Source: Echinicola rosea (GTDB taxonomy: Bacteria; Bacteroidota; Bacteroidia; Cytophagales; Cyclobacteriaceae). Taken from it: 64,000 nt of DNA. Location: positions 377,501 through 441,500 of the forward strand of contig NZ_CP040106.1 in assembly GCF_005281475.1 (NCBI RefSeq), in the 5' to 3' direction. Numbering within the stretch: the first letter of the stretch is position 1; each line of letters starts with the position of its first letter. Below, one piece after another: positions 25,348 to 52,070 of the stretch. The translations under genes and the position numbers were made by a program. The notes beneath the pieces were generated by a model, which made no database searches, had not been told where the DNA came from, and saw nothing but the letters and a program-made list of their open reading frames with translations.

Positions 25348-26349
25348 ATGATTAAGATTACAAACTGCCCTGGCACACTAGCACCCGATCACGAGACTTA
25401 ATAGTACCCGTTGTTTGAAGGTAAAAAAACAAGCCTTTTCTTACCATACCGGAGTCATCAATCCAATAATGATCAGGAAATGGCAGCATTGATGGATAAC
25501 CGGAAACGAATATCCATTTCCGGAGTCCAGGAAAAATTATCTGTAATTTGGGATAATGGAGTAATCCGCTTGACCAAAGCAGGTGAACAGGGCACTTATA
25601 TCCCTAAATCAATCCCTAGGGATTTGGAATGGGTGGACCAGGTTCCCGCAAATGAGCACCTGACCATGCAAGTATATGGAATGACAACCGCTGAAAACGC
25701 CTTGATATTCTTTCAAAATGGAGAACCCGCTTATCTCACCAAAAGGTTTGATGTAGTGAAAAACGGAAGAAAATTAGGGATCGAGGATTTTGCCACGCTA
25801 GCCGGCAAAACAAAGGAAACCGATGGTGATGAATTCAAATACAATTACAGCTATGAAGGTATTGCAGACCTCATAAAACAATATACCACTGCTGCTCCCA
25901 TAGTTTTGGAAAACTTCTATAAAATGGTACTGTTCAATTTCCTGATTTCCAATGGAGATGCCCACCTGAAAAACTTCAGTCTTTTCGAAACCCCTGCAGG
26001 AGATTATCAATTGAGTCCCGCTTATGACCTGACAAATTCCCAGCTCCATGTAAAAAATCCGGAACTCGCACCAAAAGACGGCCATTTCGAAAACGATTAT
26101 GAAACCGAAAGCTACAAGGCCAATGCATTTTATGCCTATGACGACTTCTATGAATTTGGTATAAGAATAGGGCTATTGGAATCACGAACTACGAAAATCT
26201 TGTCAAACAACATCGCCGAGCAACCCGAAGTCAAATCCTTAATTTACAGGAGTTTTCTCAATGAGGAAGCCAAAAAGCTATATACGCAGACGTACCAAGA
26301 GCGGCTGAAGTCGTTGAATTACTCCTTTAATAACCTGAGCTCGACTTAA
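25348..26349 (+). pseudogene. HipA-like kinase gene interrupted near its 5' end
   Basis: The frame begins with ATG at 25348 (MIKITNCPGTLAPDHET, the usual start of Bacteroidota HipA C-terminal proteins), hits two adjacent in-frame stops TAA-TAG at 25399-25404, then continues in the same frame to 26349. The downstream 312 residues keep HipA kinase motifs: ISGVQEKL (36-43), NGDAHLKNFS (181-190, catalytic Asp183) and SPAYDLTNS (metal Asp206). Restart at a TTG (25411) is possible. No HipB/Xre antitoxin and no HipA-N gene lie upstream. Probably an orphan, inactivated toxin-antitoxin relic. Confidence 0.72.
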
Positions 26350-26678
26350 TTTTAGTATTAAACACGTCATACGAACCTGTCTGCTCAGGCCATAGCCGTC
26401 AGGCTAACGCATATTTTTGCTTAAAACCTATAGGATTTTAAATCCCCATTATCCCGGTTCGGGATTACAAATCCCAAACAGCTAAATTGTGGCAGTTCGC
26501 TGCGGCGAACTGCCACGGCCTCCATCCCTCAAATCTCCCTTAAACCCTGTCTGGAGCCAAGGCAGGCTCGCAGGGCATGTTCCGACCACTATACGGAAAC
26601 GATTTTATAATCGAACTGAAGTTTCTAGCATATATTTCACTTGATTTATTCCTCATTTCATAAATAATGCAAAACAAC
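26350..26678. other. Gap with a strong hairpin
   Basis: 329 bp between the convergent hipA relic and PhoD gene. It contains a perfect 12-bp stem hairpin at 26489-26516 (GTGGCAGTTCGC / GCGAACTGCCAC, 4-nt loop) without a T tract. Also degenerate repeat text (TCAGGCTAACGCATA). No gene. Confidence 0.5.
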
Positions 26679-29309
26679 TCATCCAAAGGAAATCACCCTG
26701 ACCGCTTCTTGATCATTGGTTGGTGTCAATCCTTTCAGCACTTTCGACGTACCTGATTCCATTTCATTGATCACTGCGGTGTATTTTCCATCGTCAAATA
26801 CCTTTGGCCTGAAACTATTTCCTTTAATTCTTAAACAGTATTCCGTCTCACCGGTACCTTCATTGACCAGTTTTAAAACAGGGTCTGGCTGGCCTTCTAT
26901 TTTCAGTAATGGAAGGTACCCATAAACTCCCCTAGCATAATTATCATCTTGATTAATTTTAATTGGCCAACCCTCATATTGGCCATTTGGATTTTTATTT
27001 GGATCCTCATACCGGGGCCAACATTCCATCTCCATGGTTCTTGCAGCCTTGTCAAATGTCACTACCCCATATCCAGTCGCCCTATCATAAATAAGAGCAG
27101 GCTCTCTTCCACTTTGGGAAGGGTTGGCCACTGCATGAACGGTCATTTTATTTCCAAATCCATCATGAAAATCACCAGTATTCTTGGTTTTTCCTGGAAT
27201 GGGCTGATGATCTCCGGTCAATTTGGGCCACCACCTCCTCGGAAAAAGATTGTTGAGTGCTGGCCCTGCAAAGGCAAAACCAGCATCTCCAAAGTCATCC
27301 ACGCCATAATGCACGACGCTGGCCAAATGCTGATCGCCTGCTATGTGCAAGGCAAAGGACTTTCTGATAATTTTCAAAGCTTCATCCCTGCCCTTTTGTG
27401 GCCATCCGTTGGAATCCATGTCCGATGTAGGCTCGTCTCCCATGACATACTCTCCCGGCGCCGGAATAGGCAGTTTTGGGACTATACTGTCAATAATACT
27501 GCCTTCAGGCAATGTAGCTACAGTACAGAAATTTGTTTGGGACAAAACCGCCTTCATCTGTACTGAATTGGGCCAGTGGACAGTCCAATTTTCAAGAAAT
27601 TCCAGCTGTCTCTTTCCCAGTAATTCTGCTTCAATAGCATAGTGTTTTTTAATATCAAAATCAGGGTTTTGTATAAAACCATTTTTAACCTTTGCCTCTT
27701 TTGGAAGGACGTTTTGTGGCGCAGACTTGAATTTTCTGTCTTCCAAAATCGCAAAACTTATTCCGCCGTATATCCAATCGGTATAATAGGTACCAATTCC
27801 TTGCTTCACCGGACTAGGGTCATAGGGATCAGGCAAATGCCCTGTTTGGGTACGCTGCACCATATTCACCCACTCAGGTGGCATTTTATACCCACCTTGG
27901 TCTTGAGCTACATACCCCCATCCTTCATCCGATGGAGCGTGTTTTCCTCCTTCACCCCACACGTTCCCATGATAGACATCATGATCGTCAGGGATAAAAG
28001 CGCTGGGAATATGGCGGAATATTTCCGAATACGACCAGCCAAACATGTACCATTTTCGGAGATAGTCCAAAGAAGCCTTCTCTATGGGGGAAGTTTGTAT
28101 CCCAAATCCTCCCGTGCCTTCATAAAACTGATCACCTAAAAAGACCGCAAGGTCTGGCTGATGCATGGACGCATGATCACTTACCTCCCCATCTGGAAAA
28201 CCGTAATCTGCATTACAGCTGAATACGGCCATTTTCACTTGGGACTCACCTACAGGTTCTTTGGCAATAGTCCCCTCGTATGTAAAGACCTTAACCTCCT
28301 CTAAAAGTGGCAGTTCAAGATGTACCTGATAGGAAACAGCCTCGGATGCCTCCCAATTTTCTACCCTAAAAGGCACCACCCTCCCCATGGGATCCACTGT
28401 GCCTTCCTGAATGGTTTTCCACTTTCCATCCTTTCTGACCTTTAGCCATATCTTATGGCCAGAAACATCTTCCACTGGAGCAAGCTGGGCATTCAGTTTA
28501 AGCACCTTATCATGAAGGGTATATTGGGCAAAGCAAATAGGCCCAAATTCACGATCATCAAATTGCAAAACTTTGCCTCCTTTCAGCTCCCAATGGGAAA
28601 AGGCCACCGATGGGTTTTCCAGCTCCTGTTTGGGCTCGTCGGGAAAATGAGCCACCAATGCCAATCCTCCTGACACCACCTTAGGTGCAATGCCCCCAAC
28701 CTGATGAACAGCCAACACATCTTCTTCCGAAAGAGCTGTCAACTTAAAATCATAAAGCCCCGCATTGGGTTCTGCTTCTAATTTCAGCCTCAAAGGTCGA
28801 TTCAAGCTTACCGAGCTTACTTCTTGGTCTCCTTCACTGTCGCCAATAAACAGTGTCCCATCCCCTCTGACACCTACATCAAGGCCTTTGCCAAATACCA
28901 CAGCTGATCGATAGTCATCCATTTTACCTTTTGCCCCAATGCGAAAACCAGCATATGCACTTGGCTTGGCGCTCTCGCCTTTTCCAAACCAGTCCATTGT
29001 TACAACGACCTCAAACCGGTCTTCTTGATCTCCTAATTCATGGGACAATGTGTACAGGGTTCTATTTTTACCATGAACCACACAGGTGGCCTGCCCATCC
29101 CTGATCTCCCAGTCCTGAAGCCTGTTTCCCCAATATCCCGGACCAATCCACTTCATGTTTGGCCAGAGGTGCCAAGGACTTTCATGGCTTTTATTCTTAG
29201 CGAGGGCTATAGGTCTCTCCTTCGCCTTGGTCATTGCTCCCCCAGCCAATAAAACATGTGGAGCAACAGAACTTAAGGCAATCGCTTTTACAGCATGTCT
29301 TCTTTTCAT
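26679..29309 (-). CDS. Large PhoD-like metallophosphatase
   Basis: 876 residues, far longer than typical PhoD (about 500). A twin-arginine-like signal (MKRRHAVKAIALSS) is followed by an N-terminal beta-sandwich region (about 45-250), an Fn3-like stretch (about 260-350) and the phosphatase domain from about 355: FSCNADYG, PDLAVFLGDQFYEG (385-398), IPDDHDVYHGN (439-449) and IAGDQHLASVVHYG. These supply the metal ligands of PhoD/purple-acid-like enzymes. It lies 14 bp after a SusD gene, at the end of a sigma-FecR-SusC-SusD operon, so it probably dephosphorylates a substrate captured by that transporter. Confidence 0.83.
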   Translation of the reverse strand: MKRRHAVKAIALSSVAPHVLLAGGAMTKAKERPIALAKNKSHESPWHLWPNMKWIGPGYWGNRLQDWEIRDGQATCVVHGKNRTLYTLSHELGDQEDRFEVVVTMDWFGKGESAKPSAYAGFRIGAKGKMDDYRSAVVFGKGLDVGVRGDGTLFIGDSEGDQEVSSVSLNRPLRLKLEAEPNAGLYDFKLTALSEEDVLAVHQVGGIAPKVVSGGLALVAHFPDEPKQELENPSVAFSHWELKGGKVLQFDDREFGPICFAQYTLHDKVLKLNAQLAPVEDVSGHKIWLKVRKDGKWKTIQEGTVDPMGRVVPFRVENWEASEAVSYQVHLELPLLEEVKVFTYEGTIAKEPVGESQVKMAVFSCNADYGFPDGEVSDHASMHQPDLAVFLGDQFYEGTGGFGIQTSPIEKASLDYLRKWYMFGWSYSEIFRHIPSAFIPDDHDVYHGNVWGEGGKHAPSDEGWGYVAQDQGGYKMPPEWVNMVQRTQTGHLPDPYDPSPVKQGIGTYYTDWIYGGISFAILEDRKFKSAPQNVLPKEAKVKNGFIQNPDFDIKKHYAIEAELLGKRQLEFLENWTVHWPNSVQMKAVLSQTNFCTVATLPEGSIIDSIVPKLPIPAPGEYVMGDEPTSDMDSNGWPQKGRDEALKIIRKSFALHIAGDQHLASVVHYGVDDFGDAGFAFAGPALNNLFPRRWWPKLTGDHQPIPGKTKNTGDFHDGFGNKMTVHAVANPSQSGREPALIYDRATGYGVVTFDKAARTMEMECWPRYEDPNKNPNGQYEGWPIKINQDDNYARGVYGYLPLLKIEGQPDPVLKLVNEGTGETEYCLRIKGNSFRPKVFDDGKYTAVINEMESGTSKVLKGLTPTNDQEAVRVISFG

Positions 29310-29323
29310 ATTGTTAATATTGA

Positions 29324-30994
29324 TTATTGGCCAAGATTAGGATTGATATTCACCTCAGTCTCTGGGACAGGCCATTGGTCATCCACCCCGGGCCTAAAGT
29401 TCTTGGAGGTCACATACCACCTATAGGCTGGGTCGAGCTTCTTGGAGGTAGTGGCGTATTTTTCAGAATCGGGAAAAGGAGCACCCCAAAAATCCCCAAC
29501 CAACACTTCTCCACCAATTTCCCACCTAAAAATATCCCATAGGCGTATCCCCTCAAAAGCCAACTCTATCCTTCTTTCATTTCTCAAGATCGGACGTAAA
29601 GCCTCCGCATTGGTCTCCTCAATCGGAGGAAGCCCCACCGAAGCGCGTCCACGGACCGCATTGATAGTCAAGTCAAGCAATTCCTGGGTAATAGGGTTTC
29701 CCGCTTCCAGCTCCGCTTCTAGATAGCTCAGCAATACTTCCGCATATCGAATAATTGGAATATTTCCCCCATAGTCATTCCTTAGATTTCCAGAAAAGGA
29801 TTCGTCAAAAAACTTCCTTAGACCATACCCACTTCTGGTGGCTTGCTTTGAGTAAGTGAGCTGATCTACCGAACTGACCGCATCAGGGTGACAGTTATAT
29901 ACATTTGAGCCAAAGGTGCTGTTGTTCCACAGGAAATTATACCTAAATCGAGGATCCCTATTCTCTCCCATATTATCATAATTGAACCTTGGGTCCTCAT
30001 AGGAAAGAGGGCTTCCGTCATCAAAACCATAGGCATCAGTCAAGCTGCCCAGAGGATTGACAAAATGCCATCCTCCAGCAATAGCCGGATAACTATGTTG
30101 CGGCAAAGCGTTTGGTGCCTGCCCCGGAGTGAATTGTGAGCTGAAAATATTTTCGGTACTATTTTCTCCATTGGGGTTAAACAAGGATTGGTAGTCAGGA
30201 TCAATTTCATTGTCTCCCAAATCGATAATTTGCTTATAGACCTCAGAAGCTTCTGTAAACATTTCCTCACTAAGGTACATCCTACCCAGAAATGCCAATG
30301 CCGCCTGTTTGCTTGCCCTTCCTATTTCTGAGGACTGTAGCTCCCCATAGGCTGGCAGGTCTTGAACCGCTGCGGAAAGTTCATCCATGACAAATTTCAC
30401 AATAACCGACTTCTCCTCTTTCATTACATTATTGGCTTCCTCTGGTGTCAAGGTCTCCGTCACCAAAGGCACCGATCCCCAAAACTGAGACATGTAAAAA
30501 TATTGGGTTGCCCGTAAAAACCTGGCCTCGGCAGTCATGCGTTGGATTTTCTCTGTGGACATATTTACGCCCCCTATATTTTCCAGAAAATCGTTACATA
30601 TCGCAATTCTTTTATAGGATCCTTCCCAATACCCATTAATGACATTATTATTGGGCAGCAAGGTACCGTTGGTCAATCTGTTTATAGTCGAATTATCTCC
30701 TCGACGATCATAAGCATTATCAGTAGCCAACTCCAAAAACACGATCCCACAATATGTCCACCAATCACTGGGTACGACTTGTGTACCAAACTCAATGGAT
30801 CCACGGTACATACCGGTCAAAGCAATCAGAGCGTCCGATTCGGTTTTCCAAAAGTTCTCTTGGGCAAAAGCGTCTGATGGGTATTGGGAAAGTTTATCCT
30901 CACAGGAAATGGTCAAGAGCAGAACAATGCTCAAAACCACCGGAGATGTAAAACTATGTCTTATATTATCAAGTATTATTTTGGTAAATGTCAT
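29324..30994 (-). CDS. SusD/RagB-family substrate-binding lipoprotein
   Basis: 556 residues. The signal peptide ends with lipobox LTISC; DKLSQYPSDAFAQENFWKTESDA is the usual SusD start. TPR-like helices (MTAEARFLRATQYFYMSQFWGSVPLVTE) and the C-terminal NERRIELAFEGIRLWDIFRW region are family marks. It caps the SusC barrel and binds the nutrient at the cell surface. It begins 4 bp after SusC and is followed by the PhoD gene, so the ligand may be a phosphorylated compound. Confidence 0.94.
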   Translation of the reverse strand: MTFTKIILDNIRHSFTSPVVLSIVLLLTISCEDKLSQYPSDAFAQENFWKTESDALIALTGMYRGSIEFGTQVVPSDWWTYCGIVFLELATDNAYDRRGDNSTINRLTNGTLLPNNNVINGYWEGSYKRIAICNDFLENIGGVNMSTEKIQRMTAEARFLRATQYFYMSQFWGSVPLVTETLTPEEANNVMKEEKSVIVKFVMDELSAAVQDLPAYGELQSSEIGRASKQAALAFLGRMYLSEEMFTEASEVYKQIIDLGDNEIDPDYQSLFNPNGENSTENIFSSQFTPGQAPNALPQHSYPAIAGGWHFVNPLGSLTDAYGFDDGSPLSYEDPRFNYDNMGENRDPRFRYNFLWNNSTFGSNVYNCHPDAVSSVDQLTYSKQATRSGYGLRKFFDESFSGNLRNDYGGNIPIIRYAEVLLSYLEAELEAGNPITQELLDLTINAVRGRASVGLPPIEETNAEALRPILRNERRIELAFEGIRLWDIFRWEIGGEVLVGDFWGAPFPDSEKYATTSKKLDPAYRWYVTSKNFRPGVDDQWPVPETEVNINPNLGQ

Positions 30995-30998
30995 GGTC

Positions 30999-33900
30999 TT
31001 AGAATTTAATATTTACACCTAAAGTATAAGTTGCCAAGACAGGATAGTATGCACCGGAAGTATTGATTTCCGGATCCCATCCCTGCCTGTAGGAGTTAAA
31101 GGAGAGAAGATTTTCTCCACTCAAATACAGTCGCGCATTTTGAAGCCCTATTCTCTCAACAGCCGCCTCGGGAAGGGTATAGCCAAGCTGTAGGTTTTTC
31201 ACTCTGAGGTAAGCCGCATTCATTACCCAAAAATCTGAAAGCACCGTATTGGGTGTGCCACTATTCGTGATGACCTCCAGTCGTGGATAATCGGGGTAAC
31301 GCTGAGGATTGTCCGGATCAAACCGTCCTTCCATCTGCCATCTTTGGATATTACCTAAGTTATAAAAGGCCCATCCTGCATAGTTATTCAACAGTCCTTT
31401 TACTCCCGCCGCACCTTGCATCAAAGCAGAGAAATCAAAGCTTTTGTATTTTAGGCCAAAACTAAATCCAAAGGTGTATTTTGGTATACGGCTTCCTAAA
31501 TAGGTTCGGTCATATGTAGGATCTACTTGCCCGTCTGGCACTCCATCCGGACCACTGATGTCCATATACCGAATATCCCCTTCTTGAGGATTAGGATTGA
31601 CTGCAGTCTGATCCGCCCAATCACCTATGTCCTCTGGGTTAAGAAAAACCCCGTCTGATTGATAGCCATAATACATTTCCATGGGGTATCCAATAAACAG
31701 ATTGGAACCATTCCCTACAAATCCGTTCGGTTGCTCCACATTACCTAATCCAAGGGTTACTACTTCGTTATTGATCAAGGAAAAATTTCCTGCAAAAGAA
31801 TACTCAAAATCTCCGCTGCTATTTCGGTATCCCAAATCAAATTCGAATCCTGAGTTTTTGGCTTCACCGGTATTGGTTTCGCTCATACTGACCCCCAAGA
31901 CCGTAGACACACTGGCGGAAGGCTGGAACAAAATATCAGTAGTGGCCCTATTGAAATAAGTGGCATTTAAGGTAAGCTTCCCTTCCAAAAAACCAGCTTC
32001 AAACCCAACATCCGTAGTGGTGGTGGATTCCCACTTAATATCTGCGTCTTTGTACGTGGAATAAGCTGCACCAGTCGCTATGCCACCCCCAATAGGGTAA
32101 TTCCTCCCTGACTGCAACACTCTTTGGTAAGGATAATTGCCAATATTCTGATTGCCCAATACCCCCCAAGAAGCTTTTAGCTTAAGATCGGATACCCAGT
32201 TTACATTTTGGAAAAAGTTCTCTTCCGAAAGCCTCCATCCCAAGGCCATTGAAGGGAAGAGGGCATATTTGTTGCTTTCGGGAAATCTTGAAGAGCCATC
32301 ATAACGGACTGTAGCTTCGACCAGGTACTTCTCATCATGATTGTACCTTACTCTCGAAAACAAAGACTGTATCGCCCACTCATCGTCATACCCTCCTGAA
32401 AGCTGGTTGTCTGCACCTCCCATGCCAAGCACGGTATAGTCATTACTTGGAAAATCCTGACGGTAACCATTAAAGTAACTAAGGATTTGGTTTTCGAAGG
32501 AGTAGCCCACCAGAAGGTCCAAAGGATTATTATTTATCTCCTTGGTATACTCTGCTAAAAACTGGGTGGTTTTATACACCTCTTTGTTGCTGTACTGATT
32601 CAAATAGGATTGGGCAAGGTACACCTCATCATTGAGTCTCTGAGAGGCCAAATAAGAGCGTTCCTCAAGCAAGGTAAAATTATAACCTCCGATTCCAGTT
32701 AGCACCAGCCCTTTTATCGGCTCCCAGGCTAACCTAATATTGACGCCCATTCTTGATTCAGGGTTCTTCAGGTAAGAGGCTGACTGTAACCAAGAGACAG
32801 GAGTACCTCCACTCTCAGGACCAATGCCAAAATCCCCATTTGAAGCCTGCCCCAAATACACCGCCGGATAACGCAAAGAATTCTGGATCAATTGATCGGA
32901 AAGTTCTCCTCCTTTATTGGCGGTAGCCTGGGGTTCATTTCGCTCTTCATAGGTACCAAACAACCTGGTGGTCATTGTAAGGTTTTCCGCGAGGTCACTT
33001 TCCAAATTCAACCGGATATTATATCGGTTATAATTGTTCTTTTCAATGATCCCTTGCTGCCCAAGATATCCCGCAGATAAAAAATATTTGTGTATATCGC
33101 CTCCACCGTTCAGGCTAATTGTATGACCGGTTTGTACTCCTTTTCTGGAAAACAATTCATCCAAAAAACGGGTGTTGGGATAATTATCTGGGTCAGATTG
33201 ATTTCGGTATTTTTCAATATCCTCCTCGGTATAACTGTTACTTCCTGAAGCAATATTGTACATCTCTGCGTACTCCCACGAGTTGACCAAATCAGGCAGC
33301 TCTGTAGCTTCATTGAAACCAACATAACCATTATAGCTTACTGTCAATTTACTTTCGCTACCACTTTTTGTAGTTACCAGGATAACACCATTTGCTGCTC
33401 TTGCCCCATAAATAGCTGCAGAGGAGGCGTCTTTTAACACCGAAACTGACTTGATATCATTTGGGTTGATATCATCCAAGGTGCCAGGTATCCCATCGAT
33501 GATCACTAGGGCATCCGGAGTAGCCCCAAAAGAACCAACTCCCCTTACACGAATGGATCCACTACTTTCGCCGGGACGACCGGAGCGCTGGATAACGGTA
33601 ACTCCAGGCATCTGCCCTGCTAGGGCTTGGGTTGCATTCGGTACAGGTCGATTTTCAATGCTCTCGGATGAAATCTGAGAAACGGATCCAATCACATTTA
33701 CTTTTTTCTGGGTACCATAGCCGACCACTACCACCTCGTCCAACGATTTCATGTCTGGTGACAAAGAGATATTGAGCACTGTCTGATTACCTACTTCCAC
33801 CATTTGCTGTTGATAGCCGATAAAACTAAATATTAGAACAGCTCCCTCTTCTACCTCAATACTGTATTTCCCATCAATATCCGTCACACTGCCCCGCGTG

Positions 33901-34376
33901 GTACCCTGCACTTGTACCGTGGCACCTGGAATAGGCTGCCCGTTTTCGTCAGTGACGGTTCCGGTGACGTCAATCAAGTCTATCTTTTGTTGTAAATTTT
34001 CTTCATCCTTTTTAGTTCTTTCTTTTTTTCTAATGATTACAGTCTTATTGTGGATTTCATAGACAAATGAATAAGGGATCAAAAGCTGATCCAATACCTT
34101 TTCCAAACTTGCTTTATTCAAGTTGATGTCCACTTTTGGGATTTCTTTGATCAGATCCGAGCGATATAAGAAACTAAATTCACTTTGGTTTTTAATTTCT
34201 TCAAACACTTGCTCTATAGAGGCTTGATGTAAATCCAGTTTGAGTTTCACATTTTGTGAATAGGCACTTGCCGAGACTTTCATCACTCCCACCATCACTA
34301 GAATCAGGGTGAGCTTCATGATTAATAGCATTTTACCCCTCGGCCCGAAGGGTAGGTTAATGGGTTTTTTTTTCAT
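30999..34376 (-). CDS. SusC/RagA-family TonB-dependent transporter with STN domain
   Basis: 1125 residues. Signal peptide (about 15-40), STN signalling domain (about 45-115, KLDLHQASIEQVFEEI), CarboxypepD_reg-like domain (about 133-210, GTVTDENGQPIPGATVQVQG), plug (DEVVVVGYGTQKKVNV; VSVLKDASSAAIYGARAANGVI) and barrel ending TLGVNIKF. The STN domain means it signals through the adjacent FecR to the ECF sigma factor, 76 bp and two genes upstream. It imports a ligand together with the SusD partner. Confidence 0.95.
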   Translation of the reverse strand: MKKKPINLPFGPRGKMLLIMKLTLILVMVGVMKVSASAYSQNVKLKLDLHQASIEQVFEEIKNQSEFSFLYRSDLIKEIPKVDINLNKASLEKVLDQLLIPYSFVYEIHNKTVIIRKKERTKKDEENLQQKIDLIDVTGTVTDENGQPIPGATVQVQGTTRGSVTDIDGKYSIEVEEGAVLIFSFIGYQQQMVEVGNQTVLNISLSPDMKSLDEVVVVGYGTQKKVNVIGSVSQISSESIENRPVPNATQALAGQMPGVTVIQRSGRPGESSGSIRVRGVGSFGATPDALVIIDGIPGTLDDINPNDIKSVSVLKDASSAAIYGARAANGVILVTTKSGSESKLTVSYNGYVGFNEATELPDLVNSWEYAEMYNIASGSNSYTEEDIEKYRNQSDPDNYPNTRFLDELFSRKGVQTGHTISLNGGGDIHKYFLSAGYLGQQGIIEKNNYNRYNIRLNLESDLAENLTMTTRLFGTYEERNEPQATANKGGELSDQLIQNSLRYPAVYLGQASNGDFGIGPESGGTPVSWLQSASYLKNPESRMGVNIRLAWEPIKGLVLTGIGGYNFTLLEERSYLASQRLNDEVYLAQSYLNQYSNKEVYKTTQFLAEYTKEINNNPLDLLVGYSFENQILSYFNGYRQDFPSNDYTVLGMGGADNQLSGGYDDEWAIQSLFSRVRYNHDEKYLVEATVRYDGSSRFPESNKYALFPSMALGWRLSEENFFQNVNWVSDLKLKASWGVLGNQNIGNYPYQRVLQSGRNYPIGGGIATGAAYSTYKDADIKWESTTTTDVGFEAGFLEGKLTLNATYFNRATTDILFQPSASVSTVLGVSMSETNTGEAKNSGFEFDLGYRNSSGDFEYSFAGNFSLINNEVVTLGLGNVEQPNGFVGNGSNLFIGYPMEMYYGYQSDGVFLNPEDIGDWADQTAVNPNPQEGDIRYMDISGPDGVPDGQVDPTYDRTYLGSRIPKYTFGFSFGLKYKSFDFSALMQGAAGVKGLLNNYAGWAFYNLGNIQRWQMEGRFDPDNPQRYPDYPRLEVITNSGTPNTVLSDFWVMNAAYLRVKNLQLGYTLPEAAVERIGLQNARLYLSGENLLSFNSYRQGWDPEINTSGAYYPVLATYTLGVNIKF

Positions 34377-34452
34377 AATTTTGGGTTGTTAAGTAAACAG
34401 ATTTGATTTATTCGAATCGTTTTCAGGGGGATGTTGGTAGCATCCTCCGTTT

Positions 34453-35622
34453 TTATTTTATAATAATGGTCCTCCTTTCTATTTCGATTTGTACATCTCG
34501 GGTTTTTTCCAATAAAACCAATACTTCTTTCAGGTCTTCGTGTTTTCTAATCCGCCCCGTAAAAGGAAGCTCCTTTGTTTTCTGGTTTTCAAACTTCACT
34601 TCCACATCATACCAGCGGGCAAGGGACTCCATGATTTCCCCTAAAGGTTTTTCTTTAAAGTAAAACCACCCATCTTTCCAAGCGATATATTCGCGGACGT
34701 CAACGGTCCTTTTTTCGATACGTTTTTCTCCTTTGACCCACATGCTTTGCTCACTAGGCGTCAAAACTTGCTTTTGTAGGGGCTTATCCTGAACAAATAC
34801 GTTTACCTTCCCCTCTACCAAGGTGGTAAGGACAGAAGGCTCTTCTTTATAAGAGGAAATGTTAAATGCTGTCCCTAGCACTTCTACTATTTGCTGGTCT
34901 GCTATTACTCGAAAAGGGTTGTCGGGGTTTTTGGTCACCTCAAAATAGGCCTCACCACTTAATTCCACCTTTCTTTCTTGGCCAGTAAATGCAGTAGGAT
35001 ATCTAAGCGTAGAACCTGAGTTGAGCCAAACTTGGGTCCCGTCCACCAAGCTAAGGGTAAAAACAGCTCCTCGGGGGACTAAAAGTGTATTGTATTTTAC
35101 TTCAACATCCGCAGATTCATCCATCTTATATTGAAGGGATTTTCCTTGGCTTGTGATCTGAGCCCCTCCATCTTCCAGGTCCAGGGACGTCATGGACGAA
35201 AGATCATAAGAGGTCCCGTCATCCATCAGGAGAATAGCCTTATCGGTCCCTGGCCCAATGATGGCCTCCTTATTTTCTTTGGGATCATTAATATACAAGG
35301 AAGGCTTCAGTATCGCTGTCAATACCAGCAACAAGGCAAAACCTGCGGCGATTGAAGCAGCATAACTGCCGATGCGCCATTTTCTTTTCTTGGAAGGATG
35401 TAATTTACCAGAAAACTCGAGCCAACTTTTCTTCCCTGTTCCATCTTCAACCTTAAACTGAGACCCGTTCTTGTAGAAGTTGGCCAAATGCTGAAAATAA
35501 GCTTGATGATCAGCATTTTCTTCAATCCATGCCTTGAATTGTTCTTCTTCCTCTTCGCTCAGTGAATCATGCACCTTCTTCCAAAGAATAGAAAAGTCAA
35601 TATTTACCAGATTTTTATGCAC
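34453..35622 (-). CDS. FecR-family anti-sigma regulator
   Basis: 389 residues. The N-terminal cytoplasmic part (about 1-80, WKKVHDSLSEEEEEQFKAWIEE) precedes one transmembrane helix (about 87-107) and a periplasmic FecR domain (VPRGAVFTLSLVDGTQVWLNSGSTLRYP, VELSGEAYFEV, VEVLGTAFNI). The C-terminal DUF4974 segment has PLGEIMESLARWYDVEV. It relays the state of the STN-SusC to the sigma factor encoded just upstream. Confidence 0.93.
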   Translation of the reverse strand: MHKNLVNIDFSILWKKVHDSLSEEEEEQFKAWIEENADHQAYFQHLANFYKNGSQFKVEDGTGKKSWLEFSGKLHPSKKRKWRIGSYAASIAAGFALLLVLTAILKPSLYINDPKENKEAIIGPGTDKAILLMDDGTSYDLSSMTSLDLEDGGAQITSQGKSLQYKMDESADVEVKYNTLLVPRGAVFTLSLVDGTQVWLNSGSTLRYPTAFTGQERKVELSGEAYFEVTKNPDNPFRVIADQQIVEVLGTAFNISSYKEEPSVLTTLVEGKVNVFVQDKPLQKQVLTPSEQSMWVKGEKRIEKRTVDVREYIAWKDGWFYFKEKPLGEIMESLARWYDVEVKFENQKTKELPFTGRIRKHEDLKEVLVLLEKTRDVQIEIERRTIIIK

Positions 35623-35773
35623 CTATCCTGTTATTTAACCATAGGACACATGAGATTCAAAAATGGGTGACAAAAAATGTAATTTTATTTCACAATCAAT
35701 AAAAAAATCAAAATAATAGAACAATAAAATCAGCAACAACAAACTTTAAGGAAAGCTAATTCGATTTATTCGG

Positions 35774-36325
35774 TTATAGAAAAAGATTCAAATTCAAGGA
35801 TTCCCTCAGTGATTTCCTCAATTTCCCCTTGGCCCTAAGCAGATGCGTTTTGATGGTATTTTCGGAAATCTCCAGCTGCTGGGCGATTTCTCGTACGGAC
35901 TTCTCTTCCATGTACTTCAGCCGGAAAATCTCACCAATTCTAGGAGGCAGTGCTTCAATGGCACTTTCGACTTTTTTGTTGATCTCTGCCTCTTCCCAAT
36001 CTACATCAGAGTCGTTTAAACTTGCCTCCAAATAAAGCAAATGGTGCTTGTCCTGGATCTTAAGATTTCTAATATGGTTTAGGCAGCGGTTGCGGACGGA
36101 TGCATAGAGGTAGGATTTAAAGGAAGTAGTAATAGTTAAATATTCAGCTTGTTCCCAAATATGCACAAAGATATTCTGAACGATATCCTCGCATAATCCA
36201 CCCTCAAACACAAACCCCTCTGCATACCTCAACAGACTCGGGTAATAGTCATTAAAAAGCGCTTCGAAAACATCTTTGTTTTGTTTTTGAATTTCCCTTA
36301 ATAGTATTTTATCCTCTATTCTCAA
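35774..36325 (-). CDS. ECF sigma factor of the SusCD/PhoD locus
   Basis: 183 residues. Region 2 (FNDYYPSLLRYAEGFVFE, CEDIVQNIFVHIWEQ) and region 4 (ALPPRIGEIFRLKYMEEKSVREIAQQLEISENTIKTHL) of the Bacteroidota FecI-like class. It heads the minus-strand series sigma, FecR, SusC, SusD, PhoD (151 bp before FecR) and should activate it when the STN-SusC is loaded. Confidence 0.93.
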   Translation of the reverse strand: MRIEDKILLREIQKQNKDVFEALFNDYYPSLLRYAEGFVFEGGLCEDIVQNIFVHIWEQAEYLTITTSFKSYLYASVRNRCLNHIRNLKIQDKHHLLYLEASLNDSDVDWEEAEINKKVESAIEALPPRIGEIFRLKYMEEKSVREIAQQLEISENTIKTHLLRAKGKLRKSLRESLNLNLFL

Positions 36326-36400
36326 ACCTGGGTGATATAATTACTTACTTATGGTGCAAAATAGAAAAACTAAGCGATAATCCATTCTTCTAAGACGCAA

Positions 36401-36448
36401 TACCTGTGCACCGTAGCGTAGATAGGCTAATGCATATTCCGGGTTTTA
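36401..36448. repeat. Solo family C end
   Basis: On the minus strand this reads AACCCGGAATATGCATTAG followed by CCTATCTACGC, the left end of family C, without the rest. It is preceded by ACCTGTGCACCGTAGCGTAG, resembling a short insert in family B copies. Confidence 0.55.
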
Positions 36449-36473
36449 TCGGAAAATATAAGATAAAATCCAA

Positions 36474-47461: not shown

Positions 47462-49360
47462 CTACTTCTTCATCCACTTGTTACGGTGTACTTTTCCAGA
47501 AGCATCGTCGGTCAAGCGATAGCCATGCTCTCCAAAACAATCCCTCAATGCCTGAACGAGATTGGCCGCAGACTGACCGGTGCTCATTCCATAAAAATAA
47601 TTAATGGCTGCCGACATCACGGGCATGGCCACCCCCGCCTTGAGCCCTGCTCCAACTACTTCTGCCAAATCCTTGGAATCTTTCTCAAACCGCTCTTTAA
47701 GCACCGCAGAAGCCATTAGGCAATCGGAAGATTTAAAAACGCCAGAGAGTTTTTCCATCAAACTGGATTGGATGATGGACCCATTTGTCCAGCAACGGGC
47801 TATCTCGCTCAAATTGAGTCCCCAGTTTTCGGCTGTTCCTACTTTCTTGATCAAGCTAAACCCAATTTCGTGATTGACCAACCGTGCCATTTGGTAAGCT
47901 CCTTTCAGGGCTCCCAGTATTTCTTTTTGGTCGATTTTTTCTGCTTGGCGTGGATAGGTCTGTGACATGGAACCCCTCACCTCCTTATGGGTGGAGATTA
48001 GTCTGGCAGTCACAGCGGCTGTCAAAGGGGCATAGGGCACACCATATTTGGCAGCTGTACTTACCGCCCAACCTCCGGTACCCGTCTGTCCGGCCACATC
48101 CAGGATATTATCCAATAGCAGCTCGCCATCCTTCTCAGCGGTCAATATCGCCAACGTAGCATCCATCAAGTAACTGCCCGAACCTTGATTGCTCCACTTT
48201 TGGAAGGTCTTCACGATTTCACTTACGGATATCCCAAGTCCTTTTCGCATAAAAGCATAGATCTCTGCCAACACCTGCATCTCACCATACTCTATACTAT
48301 TATGTACCATCTTGATAAAATGCCCGGCACCGTCAGGCCCTACATAGTGCAGGCAAGGTTTACCATTCGGATCTTTACCTGCGATTTTTTCAATAAACGG
48401 ACCGATCAAATCAAATCCCTCTGGGGAACCGCCAGGCATAAGAGAGGGGCCTTTGCGGGCACCATCCCGACCTCCTGAGATTCCCATCCCCACAAAGTGA
48501 ATCCCGTAACCTTGCAGGTACTGCTGCCGCTTGGCACTGTCCTCAAAAAAGGAATTGCCGCCATCGATGATCACATCTCCCTTATCCACAAAGGTCAGTA
48601 GCCGTGCAATTTGTTGATCCACAATCTGCCCGGCAGGAATCATCATGAGAATCTTCCGGGGCTGCTCCAAGGATTCCACAAATTCATCCAGTTTATCAAA
48701 AGGCAAAATCCCCTTTACTTCTGGGTGGGCCTCTACCAGCTTCTTGGCCACATCTTCCTCCACACCTTGGAGGGTACGGTTATACACGCTGATCTTGACG
48801 TTTTTCTCGGCCAGGTTAAGGGCAAGACTGCTGCCCATAACGCCCATACCGATGATCCCAAAGGAGGAAACTGCTTTGTTGTTTTTTAAGTCGCTCATAA
48901 TGTCTTCTACTATTTTTTCAGGTGTTTGGTCTATAGCAATAGTCGTCGCGTGGCGGGGAAGCTCCAAGGTCTCCAGCTGGGAACTAAGCAAAGTCACTGG
49001 CATATAATGCCCTTCGCGCTGTTGCATGCGATCAGCAATCAACGCTTCATCTCCCTTCAAAAAAAACCAATGGATCTGCACCCCATTTCTTCGCAAAATC
49101 TTCCGGTAATCCACTTTCAATGCCGAGCAGGCCAGCACGGCTCCTCCGTTTTCCTCCCAATCCACCATCTCATCGGACAATTTCTCCAACCAGGGCGTAC
49201 GATCTTCATCATCCAGAGGAAGTCCCTTTTGCATTTTTTCAACGTTCTTTTTCGGATGAAAATCATCGGCATCGTAAAAGGGAAGGCCAGCCTTTTTGCT
49301 GAGCATCCTGCCAATTGTAGTTTTTCCACTTCCGGATACTCCCATTAACAAAATAATCAT
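47462..49360 (-). CDS. Gluconokinase / 6-phosphogluconate dehydrogenase fusion
   Basis: 632 residues in one unbroken frame. Residues 1-160 are a complete GntK-type gluconokinase (P-loop GVSGSGKTT at 7-15; DADDFHPKKNVEKM; LACSALKVDYRKILR). Residues 165-632 are a full decarboxylating 6-phosphogluconate dehydrogenase (GMGVMG at 171-176, VIIDGGNSFFEDSAKR, GISGGRDGARKGPSLMPGG, KMVHNSIEYGEMQ). The two halves catalyse consecutive steps: gluconate to 6-phosphogluconate, then to ribulose-5-phosphate with NADPH. Independent gnt or gnd genes are not nearby. Confidence 0.93.
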   Translation of the reverse strand: MIILLMGVSGSGKTTIGRMLSKKAGLPFYDADDFHPKKNVEKMQKGLPLDDEDRTPWLEKLSDEMVDWEENGGAVLACSALKVDYRKILRRNGVQIHWFFLKGDEALIADRMQQREGHYMPVTLLSSQLETLELPRHATTIAIDQTPEKIVEDIMSDLKNNKAVSSFGIIGMGVMGSSLALNLAEKNVKISVYNRTLQGVEEDVAKKLVEAHPEVKGILPFDKLDEFVESLEQPRKILMMIPAGQIVDQQIARLLTFVDKGDVIIDGGNSFFEDSAKRQQYLQGYGIHFVGMGISGGRDGARKGPSLMPGGSPEGFDLIGPFIEKIAGKDPNGKPCLHYVGPDGAGHFIKMVHNSIEYGEMQVLAEIYAFMRKGLGISVSEIVKTFQKWSNQGSGSYLMDATLAILTAEKDGELLLDNILDVAGQTGTGGWAVSTAAKYGVPYAPLTAAVTARLISTHKEVRGSMSQTYPRQAEKIDQKEILGALKGAYQMARLVNHEIGFSLIKKVGTAENWGLNLSEIARCWTNGSIIQSSLMEKLSGVFKSSDCLMASAVLKERFEKDSKDLAEVVGAGLKAGVAMPVMSAAINYFYGMSTGQSAANLVQALRDCFGEHGYRLTDDASGKVHRNKWMKK

Positions 49361-49742
49361 GCTTTAATTTATGGAATAATTTCAAAATAGTAGTACCCTC
49401 TATGCTTAAAAATTGAAGCTTTTTGGGTCTTTAAATAAGATGCCGGAAAAATTATTATTATAAACCTGCACCGAAAATGTCACAAAATGAAAGGCTCCCC
49501 TTTTTAGCGGCGCAAAACCTCCCTGACCAAGCATTGCTCCCCATCCCCAATTCCTCCTATATGACGCTTAGATTACCGGCTAGGTAGCCCCGCACTGTTG
49601 CCAGTAAACGGTTTACATAAGAAGAATGTCTCATGGATTGCAGGGATGAGCACAGTTTTTTTTTGATTCTTTATCCCGGTTTATCTGTGACAATCCGAAA
49701 AATCCGTGAGAAACTTTATTACTGCCATGAAAGCGGATAATC
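49361..49742. other. Upstream gap without visible gene
   Basis: About 380 bp before the family A2 element. The only notable text is GCCCCGCACTGT at 49587, a partial resemblance to the cobalamin riboswitch core that is not supported elsewhere in the region. No gene. Confidence 0.4.
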
Positions 49743-49752
49743 AGATTACCTG

Positions 49753-50919
49753 CAGGGCAAACGCATTAAACCCGGAATCAATGCCGTTTAGTTAAGGCCA
49801 TTTCCCTGTTTTCACCTGCTAGGAGTTTCTTTTCTATTTGACTTTAACTGTATGGCTTTGGCCATTTTGGTGGATTTTATCCTTTTCCTTTTTTCCCCCG
49901 AAAGCCTTCGGGGCAGGCTATTGATGAAAAAAGAAAGAAAAAAATCTAGGCCGGTGGTATGCCTTTTAAAATGGGACATGGATTTCCCCTGCGACGTGGA
50001 TCCGTCACCCATTTTAATTTCCACCCGATGGCTACGACCTAAAAGTGAGTGGGGCTCGCTGTTCCACGACGCGAGCCAACTCCCTTTCTTAACGGCCTGC
50101 ACCATTGGCCGGAAAACAGGCATACCAAGGGCCGTCAAAAGGAAGCGGTACATTTTTGAGACTTATTAACTGAATTCGCCTTGCAGGTATTGGACGTTAA
50201 GAAATTAAAAAGCGGGCGGGCAAGAAGGCAGGCTTGTTTGACGAAATACTAGCCAAAAAGAATGTTGGCTGCTAAAGAAGGTTTACCTGGCTTTAGACAG
50301 GAGGAGTTTGCCTGCATGAGGGGAGGTTTTAATTTTAGGCCAATAGATGCACACCTGTGCGCCGTGGCGTAGCGGCGGGTTTTTTTGGTTACTTTTTTGA
50401 CCTGAAGCAAAAAAGTAACAAAGGTAAAGGGATGAAAACCACCAAGGAATTTAGCTAGAAAAATAACTGCCCAAGGAAAAAATATAGAACCCATATTTTT
50501 CAGATACACACTAATTAAACGGCATTGATCCCGGAACATGCATAAGCCTATCTATCGCTGCCTAAAACTACTTCAAAATCAACCGCTTAGATATGAGCCC
50601 ATTATTCGGCCTTTGGAGCTTTCGGTTTTGGAACAGTTGATGGGGGCGTTAAGAAAATGAGTTAGCTCGCGCAGTGGACAAGCGAGATCCACTCATTTTT
50701 AGCCCACTGTAACTGGCACAAAATCAAATTAAGACAAACGAAACCGTACTCGTAAACCCAGCCACTTAATGTGAAGGAGGCTCCATGGCCTAGATTTTTT
50801 GCCTACTTTTTCATCAATAGAAAAAGTAGGAAAGTCTAATAAAGCATAGGAAGCTAAATTCCATAGCAACGGCAGATATATATTCAAACTAGGATATTTT
50901 TTCAAATGCGTTCGCCCAG
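49753..50919. mobile_element. Family A element carrying nested C and B sequence (A2)
   Basis: Left end CAGGGCAAACGCATT (49753) and right end AATGCGTTCGCCCAG (ends 50919), flanked by a perfect 10-bp duplication AGATTACCTG (49743-49752 and 50920-50929). The right 200 bp matches A1 base for base over long stretches (ACTGGCACAAAATCAAATTA; the CTACTTTTTCATCAAT hairpin). Between the ends lie a C-like left end (AACCCGGAAT), the whole B3 element, and C-like text resuming at 50528. Confidence 0.8.
49779..50527. mobile_element. Family B MITE-like element (B3), nested in C inside A
   Basis: 749 bp with ends CAATGCCGTTTAGTTA and TAATTAAACGGCATTG (one mismatch in 16). Flanks AACCCGGAAT and ATCCCGGAAC match 8 of 10. 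Its core is nearly identical to B1 over about 195 bp (roughly 11 differences), and both sit at the same point of a C end. Confidence 0.85.
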
Positions 50920-50960
50920 AGATTACCTGTTATCAAAATGAAAAAACTTTATCGATTTAG

Positions 50961-50968
50961 TATATTTG
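50961..50968 (+). promoter_or_regulatory. Putative -7 element of the Gfo/Idh gene
   Basis: TATATTTG matches TAnnTTTG and lies 22 bp before the start codon; the -33 region is not clear. Confidence 0.38.
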
Positions 50969-50990
50969 GACATTACTTAAAATGAACTAA

Positions 50991-52070
50991 ATGATGACCT
51001 CACCCATAAAAATATTAGTAGTCGGCTGTGGCAATATGGGCGCTTCCCATGCACTGGCTTATCACCAAATGGATGGCTTCGAAATCTGCGGATTGGTAGC
51101 CCGCGGAGACAGCAAGAATGAGCTAAATAGTAAATTGGGCGCAGACTACCCACTTTTCTCCAGTTATGAAAAAGCACTGGAAGCGTGCAAGCCTGATGCT
51201 GTATGCATTTCCACTTACCCTGACACACATGAAGAATATGCCCTAATGGCCCTGGATGCAGGTTGCCATGTATTTATCGAAAAGCCTTTGGCAGACACCG
51301 TAGCAGGGTCAGAACGGATTGTCCAAGCTGCCCAAGCAGCAAATAAAAAAGTAGTGGTGGGGTACATCCTTCGCCACCACCCTTCTTGGATAAAGTTTAT
51401 AGAAATCGCCCAGACCCTCGGCAAGCCACTGGTCATGCGCATGAACCTTAACCAACAGAGTCATGGCCGCATGTGGGACGTGCACCGAAACCTCATGAAG
51501 AGCCTTAGCCCCATTGTGGATTGTGGCGTCCACTATATCGATGTAATGTGCCAAATGACACAATCCAAACCCGAAAAAGTCAGCGCCATCGGCGTCCGGC
51601 TGACCGATGATATCCCGCATGACAATTATAACTATGGCCAATTGCAAATTACTTTTGAAGATGGATCAGTCGGATGGTATGAAGCAGGCTGGGGTCCCAT
51701 GATCAGTGAAACAGCCTTCTTTGTAAAAGACGTCTTCGGCCCTAAAGGTGCTGCATCCATCGTCGCCAAAGAGGCTGGCGGTAGTGGCAAATCTGATTCG
51801 GTGGATGATCATACCAAAACAGAATCCATCAAGATCCACCACGCAGACATCAATGCAGCAAATGAATTTACCAAACCTGACGAATGGGTAGAAACAGCCG
51901 ATGAACCCGACCACAATGCCCTTTGCCAGCGGGAGCAGGCTTACTTTCTGAAAGCCATCCAAAGCGACATTGACCTTGGCCAACACTTGGAAGATGCCAT
52001 TAACAGCCTCAAAGTAGCTTTCGCATGTGATGAGTCGGTAAAAACAGGGGAAATAGTGGAGATCAATTAA
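50991..52070 (+). CDS. Gfo/Idh/MocA-family NAD(P) oxidoreductase
   Basis: 359 residues. Rossmann start ILVVGCGNMGASHALAY (8-24), DAVCISTYPDTHEEYALMAL, the catalytic EKPLADTV (about 95-102) and a C-terminal substrate domain with DCGVHYIDVM. Probably oxidises or reduces a sugar or inositol-like polyol; the substrate cannot be told. It stands alone after the element-filled gap and before the A+T-rich ATPase pair. Confidence 0.9.
   Translation: MMTSPIKILVVGCGNMGASHALAYHQMDGFEICGLVARGDSKNELNSKLGADYPLFSSYEKALEACKPDAVCISTYPDTHEEYALMALDAGCHVFIEKPLADTVAGSERIVQAAQAANKKVVVGYILRHHPSWIKFIEIAQTLGKPLVMRMNLNQQSHGRMWDVHRNLMKSLSPIVDCGVHYIDVMCQMTQSKPEKVSAIGVRLTDDIPHDNYNYGQLQITFEDGSVGWYEAGWGPMISETAFFVKDVFGPKGAASIVAKEAGGSGKSDSVDDHTKTESIKIHHADINAANEFTKPDEWVETADEPDHNALCQREQAYFLKAIQSDIDLGQHLEDAINSLKVAFACDESVKTGEIVEIN

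Follow-up and report, generated by a model that had tools for sequence, protein, structure and literature searches.

At positions 49743-50929 of the analysed stretch of 64,000 nucleotides (hereafter, the window), which belongs to the 6.06-Mb single contig of Echinicola rosea, lies a nest of three distinct MITE-like families, designated A, B and C, without a recognisable transposase. On its left the nest is bordered by an open frame on the reverse strand (47462-49360) and on its right by a forward gene (50991-52067), which we take, from its own sequence and those of its relatives, to encode a Gfo/Idh-like protein; it fills the gap between them. Among the 80 loci kept, the nearest relatives of this protein are those of Echinicola shivajiensis (84%) and E. 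pacifica (82%).

The layout of the nest is given in Table 1. An earlier note on this DNA had described an A element between 10-bp duplications, with the start of C inside its left end and, within C, a complete B having inverted ends of its own and a duplication of 8 out of 10, and all of these features were recovered. The A right end, read inward, is CTGGGCGAACGCATT; the B ends, CAATGCCGTTTAGTTA and CAATGCCGTTTAATTA, match at 15 of 16 positions; and the C remnant to the right of B is 81% identical to the corresponding part of a C copy of 166 bp (L071). Relative to an A copy of 652 bp (L047), the A element in the window keeps positions 1-15 and 329 to the end, with about 313 bp gone; relative to L071, C keeps positions 1-59 and lacks 60-166, its right part. 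Given these losses, the stack also underwent deletion, which does not figure in the earlier note.

Table 1. Elements, target duplications and remnants composing the nest (window positions)
Feature	Position	Strand	Basis
Left target duplication of A, AGATTACCTG	49743-49752	.	Same duplication in G009
Family A element (ISAs1-type MITE) enclosing C and B	49753-50919	+	Ends, duplication, copy comparison
A left end CAGGGCAAACGCATT, A reference positions 1-15	49753-49767	+	Alignment to A reference copy
TTAAA, probable left copy of the C 5-bp target duplication, right copy lost	49766-49770	.	TTWAA duplications in other C copies
Left target duplication of B, AACCCGGAAT	49769-49778	.	Flank comparison
C outer end (CCCGGAAT), left of B	49771-49778	+	C-end pattern, copy comparison
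Complete family B element, 749 bp (IS4-family MITE)	49779-50527	+	Paired ends
Right target duplication of B, ATCCCGGAAC, 8/10 vs left	50528-50537	.	Flank comparison
C remainder, positions 1-59 of 166; right part deleted	50530-50588	+	Comparison with 166-bp C copy
A right part, reference positions from 329 on; 16-328 missing	50594-50919	+	Comparison with 652-bp A copy
Right target duplication of A, AGATTACCTG	50920-50929	.	10/10 match to left copy

In agreement with the statement that nothing in the nest encodes a transposase, its three longest open frames gave no Pfam family at E <= 1. A search of 49200-51500 against Rfam returned only SNORA36 (E 0.62; 22.3 bits, the gathering score being 43), a chance match, and no plasmid records resembling the nest were found. 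One hairpin-bearing module is common to the A interior (50644-50702) and the B interior (50039-50097), which hold it in opposite orientations, with 81% complementarity across 59 nt. Similar pieces appear in the same gap of other Echinicola genomes (L222, L224 and L225), in which the patterns detected neither A nor B ends. Just downstream of the nest, at 50950-50970, a sequence conserved in several relatives, TATCGATTTAGTATATTTG, resembles a Bacteroidota promoter, and the insertion seems to leave the promoter of the Gfo/Idh-like gene intact.

Nature of the three families

A, B and C are all MITEs: they are short, bounded by terminal inverted repeats, flanked by duplications, present in many copies and devoid of transposase. 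Their ends recur genome-wide at 66 sites for A (<=2 mismatches), 179 for B and 143 for C (<=1 mismatch in both), the reversed-pattern controls giving 1, 1 and 0, respectively, so that the recurrence far exceeds chance. At <=1 mismatch, and including the own genome, A ends were found in 21, B ends in 47 and C ends in 78 of the 148 genomes of the taxonomic family, where a single match may be due to chance, since in some of them the reversed patterns match once or twice as well. The C-end pattern occurs 420 times in genome G057 and 259 times in G029, numbers that look very large for a MITE in a bacterium. The complete copies considered below (49 of B, 18 of A and 27 of C) are those present in the loci fetched and do not constitute a genome census.

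The 18 complete A copies measure 134-1552 bp including nested inserts, and 13 of them show duplications of at least 8/10, nine being perfect (the window copy included). In other genera, two elements (L284 and L285) have A ends, at 16 of 17 bases, around a transposase of the ISAs1 family scoring 396 and 387 bits, respectively, with model NF033564 (cut-off 70), and they are flanked by perfect duplications of 10 bp in L284 and 9 bp (9/9) in L285. Thus, judging from ends held in common with elements encoding ISAs1 transposases, A would be ISAs1-derived. It shares with that family the ends CAGGGC..CGCATTTA and duplications of 9-10 bp, as in L284 and L285, but its copies are transposase-less and reside in a genome without a PF13808 match. 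Indeed, a profile search for PF13808 found none in the own genome, and of the 148 genomes of the taxonomic family 13 gave matches, none of them among the four Echinicola genomes included. Two other candidate partners of A were discarded: in L282, an IS110 sits within an A-ended MITE copy (compare L290); L283 is an IS256 with its own inner inverted repeat.

Family B comprises 49 complete copies of 405-1501 bp, of which 34 show duplications of at least 8/10 when scored over 10 bp. Some, at 1300-1500 bp, are large by MITE standards; by inspection, no open frame of at least 200 codons lies inside eight long own-genome B pairs (822-1501 bp), and in three of these pairs no open frame reached the cut-off of any Pfam family. 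B-type ends bound two IS4-family elements from other genera, L291 (1398 bp) and L293 (1393 bp), whose transposases of 437 and 438 aa score 180 and 195 bits with the IS4 model NF033592 (cut-off 115) and carry the YREK signature (YHYRWNIEEAYKLLK in L291, YKQRWGIEEAYKLIK in L293). L293 has a perfect 10-bp duplication, and L291 begins at a contig end, so that its left flank cannot be read; no solved structures were found for the L293 transposase. Subgroup IS4 is characterised by ends -AATR--------WTW, 10-13 bp duplications, a length of 1400-1650 bp and the YREK signature (PMC2266710, Table 1 for the ends), some of its elements having strong apparent target specificity (PMC2266710), and CAATGCCGTTTAGTTA fits the fixed positions of that end consensus. 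On the basis of its ends, its 10-bp duplications and the Y(2)R(3)E(6)K transposase of like-ended elements, B can be assigned, as far as sequence allows, to subgroup IS4. B resembles this subgroup in end consensus and duplications, and L291 and L293 do so in ends and signature; B differs in being transposase-less, with partners found only in other genera, and in that its favoured target is the end of another element.

As possible own-genome partners, seven DDE_Tnp_1 matches were considered and discarded, none being flanked by an A, B or C end pair; one such element, present in four copies, has ends different from the A, B and C patterns. In a subfamily of B (L033, L034, L039, L041, L043, L061 and L063), one site is occupied by an additional stretch of about 160 bp, similar among these copies and bordered on each side by a TTATTA-like sequence, possibly a fourth inserted family.

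As for C, in 18 of the 27 complete copies a B end abuts on one end of C, which makes the duplication unreadable. The nine copies without an adjoining B end all show a perfect 5-bp TTWAA duplication (TTTAA or TTAAA). The C sample is biased, its loci having been retrieved for their resemblance to A, B or the C remnant. A count of 18 of 27 C copies with duplications of at least 4/5 was dropped, its 4/5 cases being those with a B end against the C end. With regard to IS1634, IS701 and ISH3, for which duplications of about 5 bp and a matching transposase would be expected, C has TTWAA in 9/9 testable copies, and no transposase with C ends was found. Transposase-bearing elements with the same ends, whose search had been proposed in the earlier note, therefore exist for A and B and were not found for C: none was detected in the 319 loci fetched by then. 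In genome G129, three contigs start with an identical 77 bp of C-type end, and these shared starts suggest a multi-copy element with C ends; a contig-end search there returned only those three ends.

In Porphyromonas gingivalis, the ends of MITEs match IS5-family elements of the same genome (PMC4596501). The likeness lies in Bacteroidota MITEs having ends that match IS elements; the difference is that the partners there are of the IS5 family and resident in the same genome. The word 'nested' does not appear in that text (PMC4596501), and the literature searches turned up nothing on MITEs in Echinicola or Cyclobacteriaceae. Echinicola is added as a genus with many copies, with transposase families named for two of its three elements and a stack traceable in a close relative (G009).

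C ends as landing sites

The C end is the main landing site of B. Among the 34 well-duplicated B copies, 28 lie in sites resembling a C end, compared with 127 of 8572 sampled window 10-mers judged by the same rule. A recount meant to limit the sampling bias took in only the 37 B copies retrieved through their similarity to B or their B ends; of these, 27 have good duplications, 22 of the 27 being C-like, and 18 of the 37 lie in a recognisable C end, with outer C sequence on one side and inner C sequence on the other. B was found in either end of C and in either orientation, which argues for many independent insertions of B into C. When the flanks of all 49 B copies are swapped, they match in 233 of 2352 pairs, because C sites resemble one another; a clean control is offered by the eight B copies without a C-like flank, six of which have good duplications, with 0 of 56 swapped pairs matching.

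C is found at an A end in the window, in L104 (with TTAAA at either side) and in L288, from another genus, and a C end lies 100-180 bp in from an A end in L003, L041, L101, L107 and L124. The A end may also attract C, a claim to be held less firmly than that for B.

Hallet is said to have described, in 1991 and 1994, the insertion of IS231A into the ends of transposon Tn4430. That case likewise involves an IS4-family element favouring the terminus of another transposon, but there an autonomous IS enters a Tn3-family transposon, whereas here a many-copy MITE enters another MITE.

The nest in other Echinicola genomes

The gap occupied by the nest was searched in 10 other Echinicola genomes, of which G009 is the closest; the gap sequences of G004 and G006 equal those of E. 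pacifica and E. shivajiensis. G009 has the same nest at the same site, with the same duplication and the canonical A right end, together with a 328-bp deletion of its own, equivalent to window 50503-50830. Both sequences are identical at 667 of 704 bases in the left part of the nest (46 further bases being gapped), 83/89 in the A right part, 365/371 in the upstream flank and 52/61 just downstream. A 10-kb block (26332-36449) is 97.7% identical, and the genes adjacent to the nest are 80-91% identical. Along window 26332-63768, identity to G009 switches in blocks between about 97% and about 83%, and this blockwise pattern suggests recombination with more distant relatives. That the nest, at 92-99% against 80-91% for the adjacent genes, is a transferred island was set aside rather than rejected, in view of the 97.7% of the 10-kb block. 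In this mosaic comparison the nest looks like backbone; it is probably older than the split from G009, and there may have been exchange of the nest between the two species.

In eight of the other nine genomes the gap is without the nest, and in G002 it was not located. The distance between markers, 1719 bp in the window, is 340-398 bp in G001, G004, G007, G008 and G010, and 970-1072 bp in G003, G005 and G006, where there are pieces resembling the A or B core and no A, B or C end by pattern. Related genomes with an empty AGATTACCTG site had been proposed as a check: the nest is absent from these eight relatives, but a cleanly empty A site was found in none of the genomes searched. G010 has one AGATT-like copy at the A site, with a poorly alignable left flank, and G007 a degenerate A-like end remnant.

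At window 56413, G009 contains a C copy flanked on each side by TTTAA, while the window has no insertion there and differs at one nearby base, so that C probably moved after the two lineages split. A further insertion in G009, located in the C end equivalent to window 36443 and with a flanking repeat matching 9/10, was discarded as a clean B empty site, given that the left part of B is missing and a deletion is possible.

Order of the insertions and C-B-C units

As its ends and duplication show, an ISAs1-type MITE (A) landed upstream of the Gfo/Idh-like gene, duplicating 10 bp. C, which duplicates TTWAA, would then have landed at the TTTA-bearing A end, as it has done in other copies. The 749-bp IS4-family MITE (B) landed in the C terminus, duplicating 10 bp; its entry into C may be older or younger than the arrival of C in A. 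Finally, as comparison with full-length copies shows, the right part of C and about 313 bp of A were deleted, presumably in a single event. Because the C right end is lost, the C insertion in the window rests on family comparison; the five bases at the A/C junction are TTTAG in A, TTAAA in the window and TTGAA in G009, with no exact match. A stack of non-autonomous elements, moved in trans by different transposases, built by insertions of A, C and B and a deletion, is very probably the correct explanation, its order recurring mainly because the C end is the preferred target of B.

That the three elements form one composite unit moving as a block is highly improbable: G009 does have the same block at the same site, but A, B and C each occur separately elsewhere with their own target duplications, and these free-standing copies, among them two A copies of 652 bp without C or B ends (L045 and L047), refute it.

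The order A, C, B given in the earlier note, with three separate insertions, fits the local nesting and the 8/10 duplication of B lying in C, but C may have brought B, and we consider a history of three separate arrivals rather unlikely. Its extension to a relative timeline of three MITE bursts in one genome is contradicted by reverse nestings in the same genome. Thus, five of the 27 C copies lie between two B-interior flanks (L031, L046, L062, L064 and L072), and in L060 and L061 an A is placed within a B end, at the same B site, with duplications GATACACACT and AGTGTGTATC; the C copy of G009 at a site empty in the window also speaks against it. B is found within A in L041, L101, L112 and L128, and stacks of A with C and/or B occur, besides the window, in these four loci and in L104. 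The activity periods of A, B and C therefore overlapped, and nested bacterial insertions are unusable as a burst clock when elements land in each other's ends. The kinds of MITE involved were known; what is added is the target preference, the overlapping activity and possible C-B-C composites.

The latter bear on another history, in which C entered A already carrying B in its end, the nest being the product of two insertions. In six of the 49 B copies each flank is an outer C end, and a B duplication is present in none of the six, compared with 21 of the 24 copies in which an outer C flank is paired with an inner one. Outside these six C-B-C units, the C-type 5-bp flanks, of TTWAA type, match 5/5 in L005, L007 and L026 (a tandem of two B) and 4/5 in L006, L053 and L089, and the unit of L053 is embedded in A sequence extending on both sides. 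These data suggest that the six copies are composite units. The presence of B in both C ends and orientations elsewhere points instead to many independent entries of B into C, and the window itself fits either order, so that an arrival of C with B aboard is regarded as possible but doubtful for this nest.

Such units would be most simply explained by recombination between a B copy in one C end and a second B copy in the other, with loss of the C interior; the product could then be moved by the C ends. Together with the preferred reading of the nest as a stack of separately mobile elements, a wider scheme can be tentatively put forward as a real, if not favoured, possibility. A chain of targets, in which an A end can offer a site to C and a C end is the site of B, would be combined with new C-B-C composite MITEs derived from recombined B pairs; these would move by C ends with C-type duplications and IS4-type cargo, one MITE family hitch-hiking on another. 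The odds given to this scheme are raised slightly by the 9/9 TTWAA recount and by the TTWAA flanks of the C-B-C units.

Tandem B copies about 10 bp apart are present in L026 and L066, and in genome G122 an autonomous IS4 element (L292) is followed close by the end of a second copy.
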